Notes under the pieces: model-generated
What the model was told of the DNA's origin: nothing
The model's database searches: none
Seen by the model: the letters and a program-made list of their open reading frames with translations, nothing else
Made by a program: the position numbers and the translations under genes
Source of the DNA: Bacteroidetes bacterium GWA2_40_15
GTDB lineage: Bacteria; Bacteroidota; Bacteroidia; Bacteroidales; VadinHA17
NCBI GenBank assembly: GCA_001768195.1
Contig: MENI01000059.1
Span: 1-41,263 of the forward strand
Direction of reading: 5' to 3'
DNA length: 41,263 bases
Part shown: positions 25,107-37,803 of the stretch, in pieces
How the letters are laid out: every line of letters starts with the position of its first letter
Numbering within the stretch: the stretch's first letter is position 1

Positions 25107-27779
25107 CTAATCTGTTTCCATCTTATAATTGTACAGAAATCTGTCGGTGCCACCAACTATCAGATGCCAGCCGCTTTTATCCGAAAGTTTCCCTATTGAA
25201 AACATTGATGCTCCCCTTAAAGGAAACCCTTTTGCAGTTTCTCCGTTTTTTTCAACCAGATAAATCAATTTCCTTTTCCCATCAAAAACCCCAATTTTTC
25301 TGTCAGATGATGAGAATACAAAATTTATCGGACCTCCTGATAGGTCTGAATCAAAATCACGGACAAAGATCTCCGATTTATCATGGTCGTAAAGATACAA
25401 TATACCCTTCTCAATAAAAATGTATTCACCAAAGCCATCTCCATCTACGTCAAAAAAATCAAATGAATGGTCAACAGAGAAGCTCCTCAGACTGAATTTT
25501 TTAACTTCACCGTTAAAATAGATATGCTGAACCGTTCCATCGGGTGAGGAGCAAACCACAGATGGATCAGAACCCTGGTTGAGCCTCATTGCTGATCCTT
25601 TTGCCCTTGTAACAGGCTCTCTTACGGTGAGCCGTTTATTCCCCTGGCGGTCGAGAAAATATAATGAAGATTCATCAGAAGCAACAATGTAGTCTTTGCC
25701 CGATACTTTAAAATAGCAAATTTCAGTATTTACGATACCTGATGTCCTGAATGGCTTCCATCCTTTTATTGTACTGCCGCGTATATCATAAGAATATATC
25801 ATTTTGTCCTCACCTGCAATAAAAAGCCTGTAGTTCCTGCTATTATCATAATCAAAAAGAGCAAGTGAGTTTGTTGAAGGCGATCTGAGTCTGACAGGGT
25901 ACCTTTCAACATAATTACCGTTTCTGTCAAGAATATGGATATGATTTTTTCCGGAAAACAGCAGCTGGTATTTTCCATTTCTGAAATAGTCAATCATAAA
26001 AACAGATCCCGTGATTCTTTCCCTCACCGGCACTTTCCAAAGAACACGTCCTGCCGTATTAATCAGGTATGTATTGTTATTCAGGTCCTGGATAAATATC
26101 TCCTTTGCTCCTGTAGTATGATTAGTAAAGAAGAATGGTTTTATTGCCGCTATGGTATCGAGCAGTGTTTCCCATTCTGTTGTTGATTCCTCCCTTTCCT
26201 TTTCCTTAAAACTTACTGACAGGCTGTTATATATCATGTCGTTGCTTGAAGCCAGCTGATACCCTATAGCCTGAAGTTTATTTAGTGAATTTCTGTTCGA
26301 CTTTAAAGCAGTTATGATCTCCTCATTCAGAAATCCGGCCAGGTACTCCAGTATCCTTGAAGGAACACAATAAAAATAATACCCTGACCTGCTTGGCAGA
26401 GAGCTTTCAAAATCTCTGTACAGCAAATCATTGGAAAGTGTTTTATTCAATAAATTATCATATAACAACCTCGATATTGTAGCATAAGAGCTCCCGGTTA
26501 TCATGAACTTATCATAAAAAGTTATAAAAGTCTCCTCCACACCCGGAGCAAAGCCCGGAAGAATTGTTCCGGTAAGTCCTTTAAGCTGAATATTATAAAC
26601 GGGTTGTTTAGTTACCTCATCGGGTGTAAAATAGAGTGTTTCACAATCCTTTCCCAGCTGATCAAGAAAAAGCTGTTCAGCCTGGGTCCTGTCTGAAAGT
26701 TCATAAATAATCAGAGAGTTCTCTTTCATTGGCCGGCCTCTTAAATCGAGGTATACCCTCGAAATTTCATTCCCAAGGTAAGACTTAACCTTATTACAAA
26801 AATCTGTAATAGTTACTCTACCGGCATTTCCTCGGGATAATCTGGCGCCATCCGCCGGAAGTAAAGTTGTTTCAAACAGAATTGTTGATGCAGGAAGTAT
26901 TTTATATGTGATAAACTCCTTTGGAGAAGCCGATTTATACCTGTGAACGATCTGATCTGATGCAAGGCTCTCAGTATACCCGCTCAGTACTATTCCACCT
27001 TCGTTTATGTAGATGTCTCCTGCGGCAACGTCAGCAAGCTTCGAAATTTTTTCTGAAATACCCTTCCCCTCTTTTGTAAGCAGTGAATCAAAAAGAGGTA
27101 TTAAATTCTTAAATACCACGAACAGCTTATCTTCCCGTTTTCCTGATGCCAGGAACACTCTCGAAAATCCATCCGAATTTCTGATATCATTCCCGCTGAT
27201 GGCAGTAATGCAGGCTTCCCGGATGAGTGATTCGGAGGTGCTGCACAGTAAAAGACCGGAATAGACTGAAATAAATACTGTGTCGTTAAGTTCATTATTA
27301 AGAAATGGTATCTTAAGCATTTTGCTGTTTCCGGAACTGGTCTCAATTATTTCCCTGACGCCTGTGGACCTCAATAATTCCTTTATCTGCCTTATCTTCA
27401 GAGTACCAGGTACCACAGCAGAAAGCAGTGGCCGGAGTCTGTGATTCTGATCAGGTTGCAGCGATATTATAGCGCTGCCTTCACTTAATAAATGTTTATA
27501 CTCAGGTTTGTTTACCTGATCGGCGAGGAACTTTAATTTTCTGTTAAAGTTCTTTAGCTCTTTGAAACTGGTAAGCTCTCCGAATAATCCCTGACCACTT
27601 GTAAGCGTGTTCAGAAAGCTCTTCAGATCAACTGTCTCAATAATTAAGCAAGCCCCGGGGCTCACTGCTTTGTATGGATCTGTAAGGAAGCTTTTCCCGG
27701 ATTGATAAAAAAGATATCCCAGCACAGCAATAGCTGAAATGAGTATAAAAAGTACCACTATTACCAGACGTTTTCCCAT
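25107..27779 (-). CDS. Membrane-anchored protein with C-terminal beta-propeller
   Basis: 890 residues. One N-terminal helix (about 4-26) anchors it, probably with the body outside the cytoplasm. Residues of about 35-520 form an unrecognised mixed alpha/beta region with segments such as GACLIIETVDLKSFLNTL and GYYFYCVPSRILEYLAGFL. From about 545 to the end, blade-like repeats appear, each with a DxxGxxxxGxP-type turn: DRNGNYVERYPVRL, DIRGSTIKGWKPFR, DRQGNKRLTVREPV, EKNGETAKGFPLRG. A DVDGDGFGEYIFIE loop resembles calcium-binding FG-GAP motifs. This predicts a PQQ/FG-GAP-like propeller, often used for protein contacts. First gene of the envelope operon; function unknown. Confidence 0.75.
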   Translation of the reverse strand: MGKRLVIVVLFILISAIAVLGYLFYQSGKSFLTDPYKAVSPGACLIIETVDLKSFLNTLTSGQGLFGELTSFKELKNFNRKLKFLADQVNKPEYKHLLSEGSAIISLQPDQNHRLRPLLSAVVPGTLKIRQIKELLRSTGVREIIETSSGNSKMLKIPFLNNELNDTVFISVYSGLLLCSTSESLIREACITAISGNDIRNSDGFSRVFLASGKREDKLFVVFKNLIPLFDSLLTKEGKGISEKISKLADVAAGDIYINEGGIVLSGYTESLASDQIVHRYKSASPKEFITYKILPASTILFETTLLPADGARLSRGNAGRVTITDFCNKVKSYLGNEISRVYLDLRGRPMKENSLIIYELSDRTQAEQLFLDQLGKDCETLYFTPDEVTKQPVYNIQLKGLTGTILPGFAPGVEETFITFYDKFMITGSSYATISRLLYDNLLNKTLSNDLLYRDFESSLPSRSGYYFYCVPSRILEYLAGFLNEEIITALKSNRNSLNKLQAIGYQLASSNDMIYNSLSVSFKEKEREESTTEWETLLDTIAAIKPFFFTNHTTGAKEIFIQDLNNNTYLINTAGRVLWKVPVRERITGSVFMIDYFRNGKYQLLFSGKNHIHILDRNGNYVERYPVRLRSPSTNSLALFDYDNSRNYRLFIAGEDKMIYSYDIRGSTIKGWKPFRTSGIVNTEICYFKVSGKDYIVASDESSLYFLDRQGNKRLTVREPVTRAKGSAMRLNQGSDPSVVCSSPDGTVQHIYFNGEVKKFSLRSFSVDHSFDFFDVDGDGFGEYIFIEKGILYLYDHDKSEIFVRDFDSDLSGGPINFVFSSSDRKIGVFDGKRKLIYLVEKNGETAKGFPLRGASMFSIGKLSDKSGWHLIVGGTDRFLYNYKMETD

Positions 27780-27824: not shown

Positions 27825-27936
27825 AAATTACCCCTGCTATTCTCCTAATTATATTGGCCGTCCATATTGAAGACCAGAAAGCGATGCCGGATGTTGCAAT
27901 ACTGAATTAATTAAATATGAACCCATATTGATATTT

Positions 27937-27953
27937 TTGGCACGCAATTTGTT
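27937..27953 (+). promoter_or_regulatory. Candidate sigma-54 (-24/-12) promoter
   Basis: TTGGCACG-CAAT-TTGTT matches the sigma-54 consensus (YTGGCACG-N4-TTGCW) at every defined position except the -12 C, which is T. GG at 27939-27940 marks -25/-24, and the -13/-12 pair is 27951-27952, exactly 12 bases on, predicting a start near 27964. An AATATG/CATATT inverted repeat (27914-27929) lies immediately upstream. No protein-coding gene follows on this strand, but a two-hairpin RNA with a terminator does. The same bases overlap a TAnnTTTG match (TATTTTTG, 27932-27939), so a primary-sigma promoter is an alternative. Confidence 0.5.
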
Positions 27954-27963
27954 TTAATATAGT

Positions 27964-28032
27964 TACAAGGCAATCCCAATCATATCCCTGATCCTTCAGG
28001 GCAGCCAGGTCAAAAGCCTGGCTTTCTTTTTT
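27964..28032 (+). ncRNA. Candidate small RNA with two hairpins
   Basis: About 69 bases from the predicted sigma-54 start to the end of a T-run. The first 22 bases look unstructured (CAATCCCAATC). Then come a perfect hairpin CCCTGA-TCCT-TCAGGG (27986-28001) and, one base later, the terminator hairpin AGCCAGG/CCTGGCT (28003-28023) followed by T-rich sequence to 28032. No open reading frame of meaningful size fits. The terminator has its U-tract only in the plus direction, where no upstream protein gene exists, so something short must be transcribed here. I recognise no known RNA family. Confidence 0.45.
28003..28032 (+). terminator. Intrinsic terminator, plus strand
   Basis: Seven-pair stem AGCCAGG (28003-28009) with CCTGGCT (28017-28023), loop TCAAAAG, then CTTTCTTTTTTT-type sequence. 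On the minus strand, coming from trpS, no U-tract follows the stem, so it acts in the plus direction. Confidence 0.8.
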
Positions 28033-28034
28033 TA

Positions 28035-29024
28035 TCAGAATGGTTTATACCCGATTATCTCCCTGACTTCACGTACAGTTTTTGATGCGCTTTGCCTGGC
28101 TTTTTCTGCTCCCTGTGAAACTACATTTGAAAGGTATTTATCATCGGCAAGGATATTGTTTATACGTTCTCTTATCGGTTCGGTGAATTTTACTATATCT
28201 TCAGCCAGCTGTTTTTTCATATCACCGTACCGTATTTCGCATGATGCAAATTTATCTGTGAAATAATTAACAGTAGAAGGATCTGAAACAACATTCATGA
28301 TTGTGAAGAGGTTTTTGACAGGTTCCGAAGGTTCCTGTCCCGGAGCTGTAGGTCCGGTATCAGTTACAGCTTTCATCACCTTTTTTTTAATCTCCCGGGG
28401 GGTATCTGCCAGAAAGATCCCGTTGCCCTCACTTTTCCCCATTTTTCCCGTCCCGTCAAGTCCGGGTATTTTTACCAGCTGTTTGCCGAAATTGTATGCA
28501 TCCGGTTCAGGAAAATAATTTACATCGTACATCATGTTAAACCTTCTGGCGAATCTCCGGGTCATCTCGAGATGTTGTTCCTGGTCTTTACCTACAGGAA
28601 CTTTATTGGCTTTATGAATGATTATGTCTGCAGCCATCAGAACGGGATATGTAAGTAATCCTGCATTTATATTATCAGGTTGTTTCCTTATTTTCTCCTT
28701 GAATGAAGTTGTCCTTTCCAGCTCTCCCACATAAGCATTCATATTTAGCAGTAGATATAACTCCGACACCTCGGGTACATCGCTCTGGATAAAAACTGTT
28801 GCAATGTCAGGATCAATTCCGCATGCCAGATATTCAGCAAGTACCTGCTTAATGTTGCCATGAAGGTCTCCTGGTTTGGGATGGGTGGTAAGTGCATGAT
28901 AATCTGCAATAAAGAAATAGCAGTTATTCTCGTGCTGCATTTTAAGAAAGTTCTTTATGGCACCGAAATAATTACCAAGGTGAAGGTTGCCCGTTGATCT
29001 GATACCACTTACTACTGTATCCAT
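28035..29024 (-). CDS. trpS: Tryptophan--tRNA ligase
   Basis: Class I aminoacyl-tRNA synthetase charging tRNA-Trp. 329 residues, the usual length. N-terminal signature SGIRSTGNLHLGNYFGA (residues 6-22, HIGH-type motif at LHLGNY), VPVGKDQEQHLEMTRRFARRFN, and the KMSKS loop as KMGKS (194-198, in GTGKMGKSEGN). The C-terminal anticodon-recognition helices follow. Single-gene unit on the minus strand; its promoter -7 element borders the repeat-filled region shared with rbfA. Confidence 0.97.
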   Translation of the reverse strand: MDTVVSGIRSTGNLHLGNYFGAIKNFLKMQHENNCYFFIADYHALTTHPKPGDLHGNIKQVLAEYLACGIDPDIATVFIQSDVPEVSELYLLLNMNAYVGELERTTSFKEKIRKQPDNINAGLLTYPVLMAADIIIHKANKVPVGKDQEQHLEMTRRFARRFNMMYDVNYFPEPDAYNFGKQLVKIPGLDGTGKMGKSEGNGIFLADTPREIKKKVMKAVTDTGPTAPGQEPSEPVKNLFTIMNVVSDPSTVNYFTDKFASCEIRYGDMKKQLAEDIVKFTEPIRERINNILADDKYLSNVVSQGAEKARQSASKTVREVREIIGYKPF

Positions 29025-36345: not shown

Positions 36346-37803
36346 TTATATCTCTTTTCTTAACCTGGCAACCGGAATATTCAACTGCTCCCGGTATTTG
36401 GCAACGGTTCTTCTTGCGATCTGGTATCCTTTTTCCTGCAGTATCTCAGTCAGCCTCTCATCCGTTAAGGGCTTTCTTTTTTGTTCGTTGTCGATGCAGT
36501 CCTGCAATATGCGTTTTATCTCTCTTGTAGAAACTTCCTCCCCTGTGTCAGTCTGCAGCCCCTCTGAAAAGAAATATTTAAGTGGTAAAATGCCGAAATG
36601 TGTCTGAATGAACTTACTGTTCGCTACTCTCGAAACAGTTGAGATATCGAAACCTGTCATTTCAGCAACATCTTTAAGTATCATAGGTCTTAGTCTGGTT
36701 TCATCTCCGTCGATAAAATACTCCTTCTGGTATTCAAGAATTGCATTCATGGTAAGGAGTAAAGTATTCTGTCTCTGTCGTATAGCATCAATGAACCATT
36801 TAGCCGAATCTATTTTTTGCTTGACAAACTGTACTGCATCCTTCATCTCCTTTTTCTGGTTTTTATCCTTGCTGTAGGAACGCAGCATTTCGTTGTAGGC
36901 AGAGCTGAGCCTCAGTTCAGGAAGGTTGCGTGAGTTCAGATGAAGGTCAAAACCATCTTCTGAAAGTTCCAGGATGAAATCCGGTATGATCGGTTGTGAT
37001 GATTTACTGAAAGGATCATTGTACACTCCTCCCGGCTTTGGATTCAGCTTAAGCACCTCATCAATGGCAGCTTTAAGATCACTCTCTTCTATATCGAGCC
37101 GCGCAATGATTTTATCATAGTGTCTTTTACTGAATTCTTCAAAGTACGAATCCAGTATAGTATATGCAAGCCTGACTGCAGGGAGCGATTTATCCCGTTT
37201 ATCAATCTGGAGAAGAAGACATTCTTTGAGTGTTCTTGCTCCTACTCCGGCAGGTTCAAGGTCTTGTATTATTTTCAGAACCACTTCAAGCTCTTCCTCT
37301 GTAGTTTCTATATTCTGGAGGAATGCCAGATCATCAACAATATTGATCAGTTCGCGTCTCAGGTAACCGTCTTCATCAATATTACCTATTATATATTGTC
37401 CGAGGATCTCCTGTTTATCTGTCAGATCCCTCAGGCCAATCTGAGACTCGAGATGTTCATGAAAAGAAAAACCTACCGAAAATGGTATTTCAGCCCTTCG
37501 CTCCTCATCCTTTGTGGTATTCTTAGCCTGTAACCTGTAGTCTGGAATATCATCATCCTCTATATAATCATCGAGTGTAAATTCATCCTGATCTTTATCA
37601 TCCTCTTCAAACTGATCCTCCTCCTGTGTCTCCTGACTTACCTCTTCCTCCTCAGTTCCCTCTTCGAGGGCAGGGTTTTCCTCGAGTTCTTTTTTAATAC
37701 GCTCTTCTATCTGTAATGTAGGAACTTCCAGCAGTTTTATCATCTGAATCTGCTGTGGGGAAAGCTTCTGAAGCATTTTCTGCTGAAGTTTTTGCCTTAA
37801 CAT
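36346..37803 (-). CDS. rpoN: RNA polymerase sigma-54 factor
   Basis: 485 residues. Region I is typical (LQQKMLQKLSPQQIQMIKLLEVPTLQIEERIKKELEENPALEE), then a very acidic region II (about 49-82, nearly all Glu/Asp/Gln), the core-binding domain (GVGARTLKECLLLQI) and the DNA-binding part with DISTVSRVANSKFIQT (helix-turn-helix). The RpoN box ARRTVAKYRE lies at residues 463-472. The protein is complete, so the cell can read -24/-12 promoters; activators are not encoded in this window. Co-transcribed with asnS upstream (36-base gap) and the PAP2-like gene downstream. Confidence 0.96.
   Translation of the reverse strand: MLRQKLQQKMLQKLSPQQIQMIKLLEVPTLQIEERIKKELEENPALEEGTEEEEVSQETQEEDQFEEDDKDQDEFTLDDYIEDDDIPDYRLQAKNTTKDEERRAEIPFSVGFSFHEHLESQIGLRDLTDKQEILGQYIIGNIDEDGYLRRELINIVDDLAFLQNIETTEEELEVVLKIIQDLEPAGVGARTLKECLLLQIDKRDKSLPAVRLAYTILDSYFEEFSKRHYDKIIARLDIEESDLKAAIDEVLKLNPKPGGVYNDPFSKSSQPIIPDFILELSEDGFDLHLNSRNLPELRLSSAYNEMLRSYSKDKNQKKEMKDAVQFVKQKIDSAKWFIDAIRQRQNTLLLTMNAILEYQKEYFIDGDETRLRPMILKDVAEMTGFDISTVSRVANSKFIQTHFGILPLKYFFSEGLQTDTGEEVSTREIKRILQDCIDNEQKRKPLTDERLTEILQEKGYQIARRTVAKYREQLNIPVARLRKEI

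Follow-up and report, generated by a model that had tools for sequence, protein, structure and literature searches.

The locus beside trpS

The window analysed here comprises the 41,263 nucleotides of contig MENI01000059.1, from the uncultured Bacteroidales bacterium GWA2_40_15. Beside trpS it contains a short locus (27936-28033) where a sequence-only reading had described a -24/-12 element followed by a unit of about 69 bases, consisting of an unstructured stretch, a perfect 6-bp hairpin and a plus-strand terminator. We found all three parts at the predicted coordinates, with the +1 predicted at 27964, 12 bases 3′ of the promoter element (Table 1). There was no plus-strand ORF of at least 60 aa between the divergent gene and trpS, in agreement with the earlier statement that no protein gene lies on this strand. 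The same reading had noted RpoN in the window; the gene, ∼8.3 kb from the small RNA locus, indeed encodes three Sigma54 Pfam domains.

Table 1. Features of the window and related sites elsewhere in the source genome
Feature	Position	Strand	Remarks
Divergent upstream gene	25107-27779	-	Bounds the RNA locus on the other side from trpS
Sigma-54-type promoter TTTGGCACGCAATTTG	27936-27951	+	-24 (TTTGGCAC) and -12 (TTTG) at exact spacing
Small RNA gene	27964-28033	+	Predicted +1 to end of T run, ∼70 nt
Unpaired conserved 5′ region	27964-27985	+	∼22 bases; likely pairing region (predicted)
Hairpin 1, CCCTGA-TCCT-TCAGGG	27986-28001	+	Perfect 6-bp stem
Intrinsic terminator and T run	28003-28033	+	Hairpin 28003-28023, 8 pairs, T run behind
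trpS	28035-29024	-	PF00579; convergent neighbour, outside the RNA unit
rpoN (sigma-54)	36346-37803	-	PF00309, PF04963, PF04552; presumed sigma factor
Second sigma-54 orphan RNA	G000:C97:149024-149125 (= L266 3525-3627)	+	Strict promoter; relatives L206-L235
Third strict promoter site	C127:40972		Inside a reading frame of the opposite strand; a lipoprotein-like ORF follows after 137 bases
Sigma-54 activator candidate	L311 774-2015 (G000:C97)		From motif scan; by eye, starts directly with the AAA+ part, no receiver domain

The sequence TTGGCACGCAATTTG at 27937-27951 is an exact match to TTGGCAYNNNNTTTG, and it is the sole match in the window even when up to one mismatch is allowed. As 2.2 matches would be expected by chance at this stringency, the rarity of the match within the window, taken alone, proves little. 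Searching the 4.77-Mb genome with a stricter pattern, TTTGGCAYNNNWTTTG, gave three sites compared with none for the reversed control pattern. A laxer pattern gave 23 sites against 16 for the control; the lax matches are therefore mostly noise.

Conservation of the promoter and RNA

A 321-base DNA query including the promoter and the end of trpS was used to search 61 genomes. It matched 38, of which 35 were among the 37 genus genomes, with a few matches falling in the trpS part only; promoter and RNA could be aligned in 30 loci. To avoid circularity, we built a model (R1) from the RNA alone, without the promoter. R1 detected one strong copy each in 53 of 59 genus genomes (E<1e-6), any further matches having E values of 0.03 or worse. 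Outside the genus, it detected two genomes (G247 and G189) among 295 of the order. An exactly spaced promoter was present in 54 of these 55 genomes, and the remaining one (G344) has Ns there.

Mean pairwise identity within the genus was 0.888 for the promoter (30 loci) and 0.744 for the RNA. The corresponding values were 0.427 for the spacer, 0.256 for the upstream sequence and 0.459 for trpS third codon positions (25 genomes). Since both elements exceed the spacer, the upstream sequence and the trpS third positions, the comparison marks promoter and RNA out as two selected elements within freely changing sequence. Losses were also seen. One genome (G017, L047 656-720) keeps a terminator remnant without a promoter, and in another (G020, L046) the stretch has gone altogether; with near-identical flanks, this reads as loss in two steps.

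Taking all loci together, a TGGCAY-N4-TTGC-like -24/-12 element was readable at identical spacing in 91 of 92 (77 tabulated and 14 of 15 more), the exception having Ns at this place. The -12 element was TTTG in 90 of the promoter-bearing loci and ATTG in one (G078).

Structure and covariation

The terminator shows seven pairs across the 30 aligned loci, with 100% of cells paired and a double change at two pairs in one locus. Hairpin 1 carries a compensatory change, with C-G in 15 and U-A in 14 of the 30 loci, and its closing pair is C-G in 18, A-U in 7, U-A in 1 and an A-G mismatch in 4. When the loci are aligned with MAFFT, 98.6% of cells are paired, and double changes occur at three pairs. 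None of 500 shuffles of this alignment scored as high on four of five covariation measures; the fifth, the count of further pair types, was equalled by 49 of the 500. A control in which the pairs were slid by +1 gave a covariation score of 0.097 against 0.108 for the real pairs, with just 63% of the control cells paired. RNAalifold, run unguided, recovered both helices and gave five pairs with double changes. An alignment fitted to the model (A3) gave eight, to which we attach little weight because hairpin 1 is out of register in many of its rows. Counting G-U pairs in A3 as proof of the strand was abandoned on account of the same register shift. Folding of single sequences produced hairpin 1 in 38 of 41 members, with a G-U pair in 21 of the 38 hairpins, and the fold z was below -2 in 39 of the 41 family and order members. 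The sequence-only reading had named a lack of conservation of the -24/-12 bases and the pairings across relatives as grounds for refutation; the promoter is kept and the helices covary.

Total fold energy does not discriminate between the strands, the plus strand being lower in 20 of 41 members. The plus-strand direction is taken from the promoter and the U run, both of which point that way. This bears on the idea that, on the minus strand, the conserved hairpins serve trpS as its terminator or 3′ untranslated region. Their position and the alike fold energies of both strands would speak for it. The minus strand, however, has no U run, a conserved promoter stands at the far end and some members lie away from trpS, making this explanation extremely unlikely.

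It is just as hard to credit that the promoter is an ordinary Bacteroidota sigma-A promoter (TTTG / TAnnTTTG), or that the RNA encodes a small peptide. TTTG is common to both promoter types and 7 of 41 members contain an ATG. However, TA is found at the TAnnTTTG place in none of the 41 members and none of the 30 genus loci, whereas TGGCA is present in all 30 aligned genus loci; there is no conserved reading frame, and 15 of 41 members lack any ATG, GTG or TTG.

The locus has the make-up of an independent short noncoding unit with its own promoter and terminator. The suggestion of a stand-alone RNA behind a sigma-54-type promoter is supported by comparative genomics, promoter and pairings being kept with no gene 3′ on the strand. 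Comparison of sequences shows selection on promoter and RNA, a paired structure, a single copy per genome and a spread over seven families. We consider it very probable that this conserved RNA gene with its sigma-54 promoter is a genuine transcription unit.

Distribution beyond the genus

Two further models (R2 and R3) include the promoter and contain no trpS sequence. Within the family, 85 of 118 genomes had the RNA at E<=0.1. One clade of 22 genomes (g195) is without it apart from a single marginal match. Co-loss with rpoN was considered and is ruled out, as this clade retains rpoN (21 of 22 genomes) yet lacks the RNA.

Across the order at E<=0.1, R2 matched 21 of 295 genomes and R3 matched 28 of 393. 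We accepted as members those having the promoter and a matching RNA, and these fall in seven families (f1, f8, f15, f43, f44, f65 and f118). Outside the original family the terminator stem often differs in sequence; the promoter, a CAUAU-like core and the hairpin persist. Among the weak R2 matches with E above 0.02, L092 and L094-L098 have no promoter at the match, and among the weak R3 matches L244 and L246-L249 have none in the locus; neither group was counted. Two of these loci, L244 and L247, could be diverged members, since they come from f65, the family of member G894. Neither L153 nor L154, which have a promoter and CUCAACAUAU and no trpS match, was assigned either way, nor was L250. 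The f33 loci L090, L243 and L245 have a promoter with a different RNA and were left uncounted.

Sampling 395 genomes of the phylum with strict filters gave no further convincing member; one match (G677) was rejected as having no promoter. A DNA pattern search returned 26 named records, 25 of them Bacteroidales, Bacteroidia or Bacteroidota/Bacteroidetes MAGs and many, judged by name, from fens and lakes. The remaining record has promoter and RNA at L062 2152-2200 (JACTVG010000037.1), a contig of 4.8 kb from a MAG that bears the label Methanoregulaceae archaeon; this is probably a binning error.

The trpS neighbour

The RNA is convergent with trpS in 69 of the 77 tabulated members, and in 64 of these the two are within about 130 nt. 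In five of the 77 trpS is 0.6-2.4 kb away, and for eight there was no trpS match in the fetched stretch. The link between RNA and trpS is old: outside the family, 13 of 14 loci have trpS as neighbour, although R2 and R3 are free of trpS sequence. In three f43 genomes (L146/G188, L237/G886 and L242/G078) the TrpS adjoining the RNA is just 39-40% identical, which looks like an in-place replacement of trpS. In G338 (L176) the TrpS is 37-38% identical, and there is no RNA.

Such frequent close convergence, and its persistence in f43 beside so different a TrpS, would be understandable if the RNA were a local antisense regulator of trpS, acting via read-through or transcription interference. We regard this as very unlikely: the RNA ends before trpS, its 5′ region is conserved despite having no overlap with trpS, and there are the members with a distant or unmatched trpS. 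We instead take the adjacency to have been inherited, and keep local control of trpS as a minor alternative.

Sequence upstream of the promoter

A 16-base inverted repeat directly upstream had been put forward as a possible regulator site. The repeat is present in the source genome (AATATG-N4-CATATT, 27914-27929), but its being a conserved regulator site is not supported: just 3 of 29 genus loci, the query locus included, have a 6+6 inverted repeat of whatever sequence within the 39 bases 5′ of the promoter, and the element is not shared among them. No shared activator site or motif was found in 66 upstream regions, close relatives included, where the commonest words are A/T-rich. These regions hold 128 inverted repeats of 6+6 bases, compared with a mean of 64 and a maximum of 79 in 20 shuffles, and no common position or sequence was seen among them.

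A second sigma-54 RNA

The genome has three strict consensus promoters, and two of them stand in front of conserved orphan RNAs. The second RNA has the consensus AUAGAGGUUUUUUUCAUAGGUUAGGUUAGUUUUAGGGUUAUCAAAA (a shorter form in the source genome) and a nearly invariant core of ∼45 nt; the terminator that follows varies in sequence. When a DNA query including its promoter was used, 94 of 118 family genomes gave matches at E<=0.01, the weakest being short and maybe chance matches, and the promoter was present in all 30 loci returned. The second RNA was also matched in clade g195, where the first is missing. It resembles the first in being an orphan with the same promoter type, a conserved unpaired 5′ part and a terminator; its core sequence, however, is unrelated. 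Pairing between the two RNAs was no better than in shuffles in each of the eight genomes tried.

Gene starts of the CCUAUGAAAAAA type are complementary to the core of the second RNA. Complements of its 9-mers occurred 85 times at gene starts, against a shuffle maximum of 30, an excess that arises mainly because Met-Lys-Lys starts are common.

Family f33 contains a third sigma-54 candidate RNA. In three genomes (L090/L155 in G276, L243 in G821 and L245 in G882) a promoter is followed by a common AGUUUCUCUUCAUGUUGUUUUGGUUAAUGGA core and a G+C-rich terminator. Separately, six loci (L251, L252, L253, L256, L258 and L265) have related, UUUUUUCAUGGAUUUAGGUUUAGGGU-like sequences followed by a hairpin, with no strict sigma-54 promoter in the bases shown; these are possible paralogues or leaders.

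The existence of the second RNA points to a small RNA regulon rather than an isolated case. More speculatively, sigma-54 in this branch of the Bacteroidales might chiefly drive sRNAs, forming an envelope or protein-stress arm like the enterobacterial sigma-E sRNAs. In this arm the second RNA, with a core that complements UAUGAAAAAA, would dampen the translation of numerous secreted proteins whose sequence begins Met-Lys-Lys. We think this improbable as a whole.

RpoN, activator and proposed action

A match to rpoN was found in 107 of 118 family genomes. RNA carriers such as G011, G003 and G408 have no rpoN match, which incompleteness or loss may explain. Sigma-54 promoters require an activator, and a motif scan of a 795-kb sample of the genome gave one match (Table 1). 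The genes after this candidate read, by eye, as lptE, a hypothetical gene, secG, groES and groEL (L311 774-6048). The activator-lptE-groEL stretch lies ∼8.5 kb before the second sigma-54 RNA.

The sigma-54 regulon of Flavobacterium psychrophilum covers protein quality control and envelope stress: genes for chaperones and the envelope lie behind sigma-54 promoters, as does a putative regulatory RNA, Rfp36, and a single promoter is listed for lptE together with a probable sigma-54 regulator (PMC9723704). By analogy, our guess is that the likeliest signal here would be envelope or protein stress. Together with the activator neighbourhood, the parallel makes a stress-induced RNA that base-pairs through its 5′ end the most economical reading.

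We infer transcription, dependence on RpoN, an activator, base pairing and targets as follows. Once opened by an activator of the AAA+ enhancer-binding type, sigma-54 RNA polymerase would start at about 27964 and run as far as the terminator; the product would be a noncoding RNA of ∼70 nt. Hairpin 1 and the terminator would stabilise this RNA and make its 3′ end, and the conserved 5′ stretch, which is left unpaired (genus sequence ACAGGCAAUCUCAAUCAUAU), would most likely pair in trans with mRNAs.

Target tests were confined to 612 ORF starts of the source genome. Complements of the first RNA's 7-mers numbered 231 at these starts, against a shuffle maximum of 215, and 379 inside genes. For 8-mers and 9-mers the counts were within those of the shuffles (64 against a maximum of 71, and 19 against 24, respectively). 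Duplex energies at gene starts were uninformative, with windows inside genes scoring still lower. Neither duplex energies nor k-mer complements thus gave a signal specific to gene starts for the first RNA over the 612 ORFs.

That no target signal was obtained would also fit a sigma-54-driven sRNA that binds or sequesters a protein instead of pairing with mRNAs, and a conserved unpaired motif with a hairpin suits a protein site equally well. Nothing direct speaks against this, but bacterial sRNAs that are short, finish in a terminator and have a free 5′ end mostly act by pairing with mRNAs, and we consider protein binding rather unlikely. The full reading, a stand-alone trans-acting base-pairing sRNA of ∼70 nt belonging to the RpoN regulon, is in our judgement probable. 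A compact RNA gene under selection across seven Bacteroidales families, whose promoter type points to its sigma factor, makes the role of sigma-54 in these bacteria directly testable.

Comparison with known systems

No match to Rfam 15 was found at the gathering score in the window or in the loci of eight relatives; the best sub-threshold match was Hrs12, at 22.5 against 70 bits. What is known of RNA regulators in the Bacteroidota comes mostly from Bacteroides and a small number of flavobacteria, and we noticed no sigma-54 sRNA in Bacteroidales among the matches listed in the open-licence literature. The sigma-54-dependent sRNAs of the Proteobacteria include Qrr1-5, GlmY/GlmZ, CrcZ and NrsZ. 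Like the present RNA, these are orphan genes behind a -24/-12 promoter that end in a terminator. They differ from it in size and structure and belong to another phylum, and the present RNA has no Rfam match to any of them.

A closer parallel by phylum is Rfp36 of F. psychrophilum, which is described as an independent RNA with a -24/-12 promoter (the sigma-54 SM4 promoter; PMC9723704). The comparison with Rfp36 is by description rather than by sequence, and homology looks unlikely because there was no further convincing member of the family among the 395 phylum genomes sampled. The RNA is therefore a new family, absent from Rfam 15, of a kind already known from the sigma-54-driven sRNAs of Proteobacteria and from one flavobacterial candidate.
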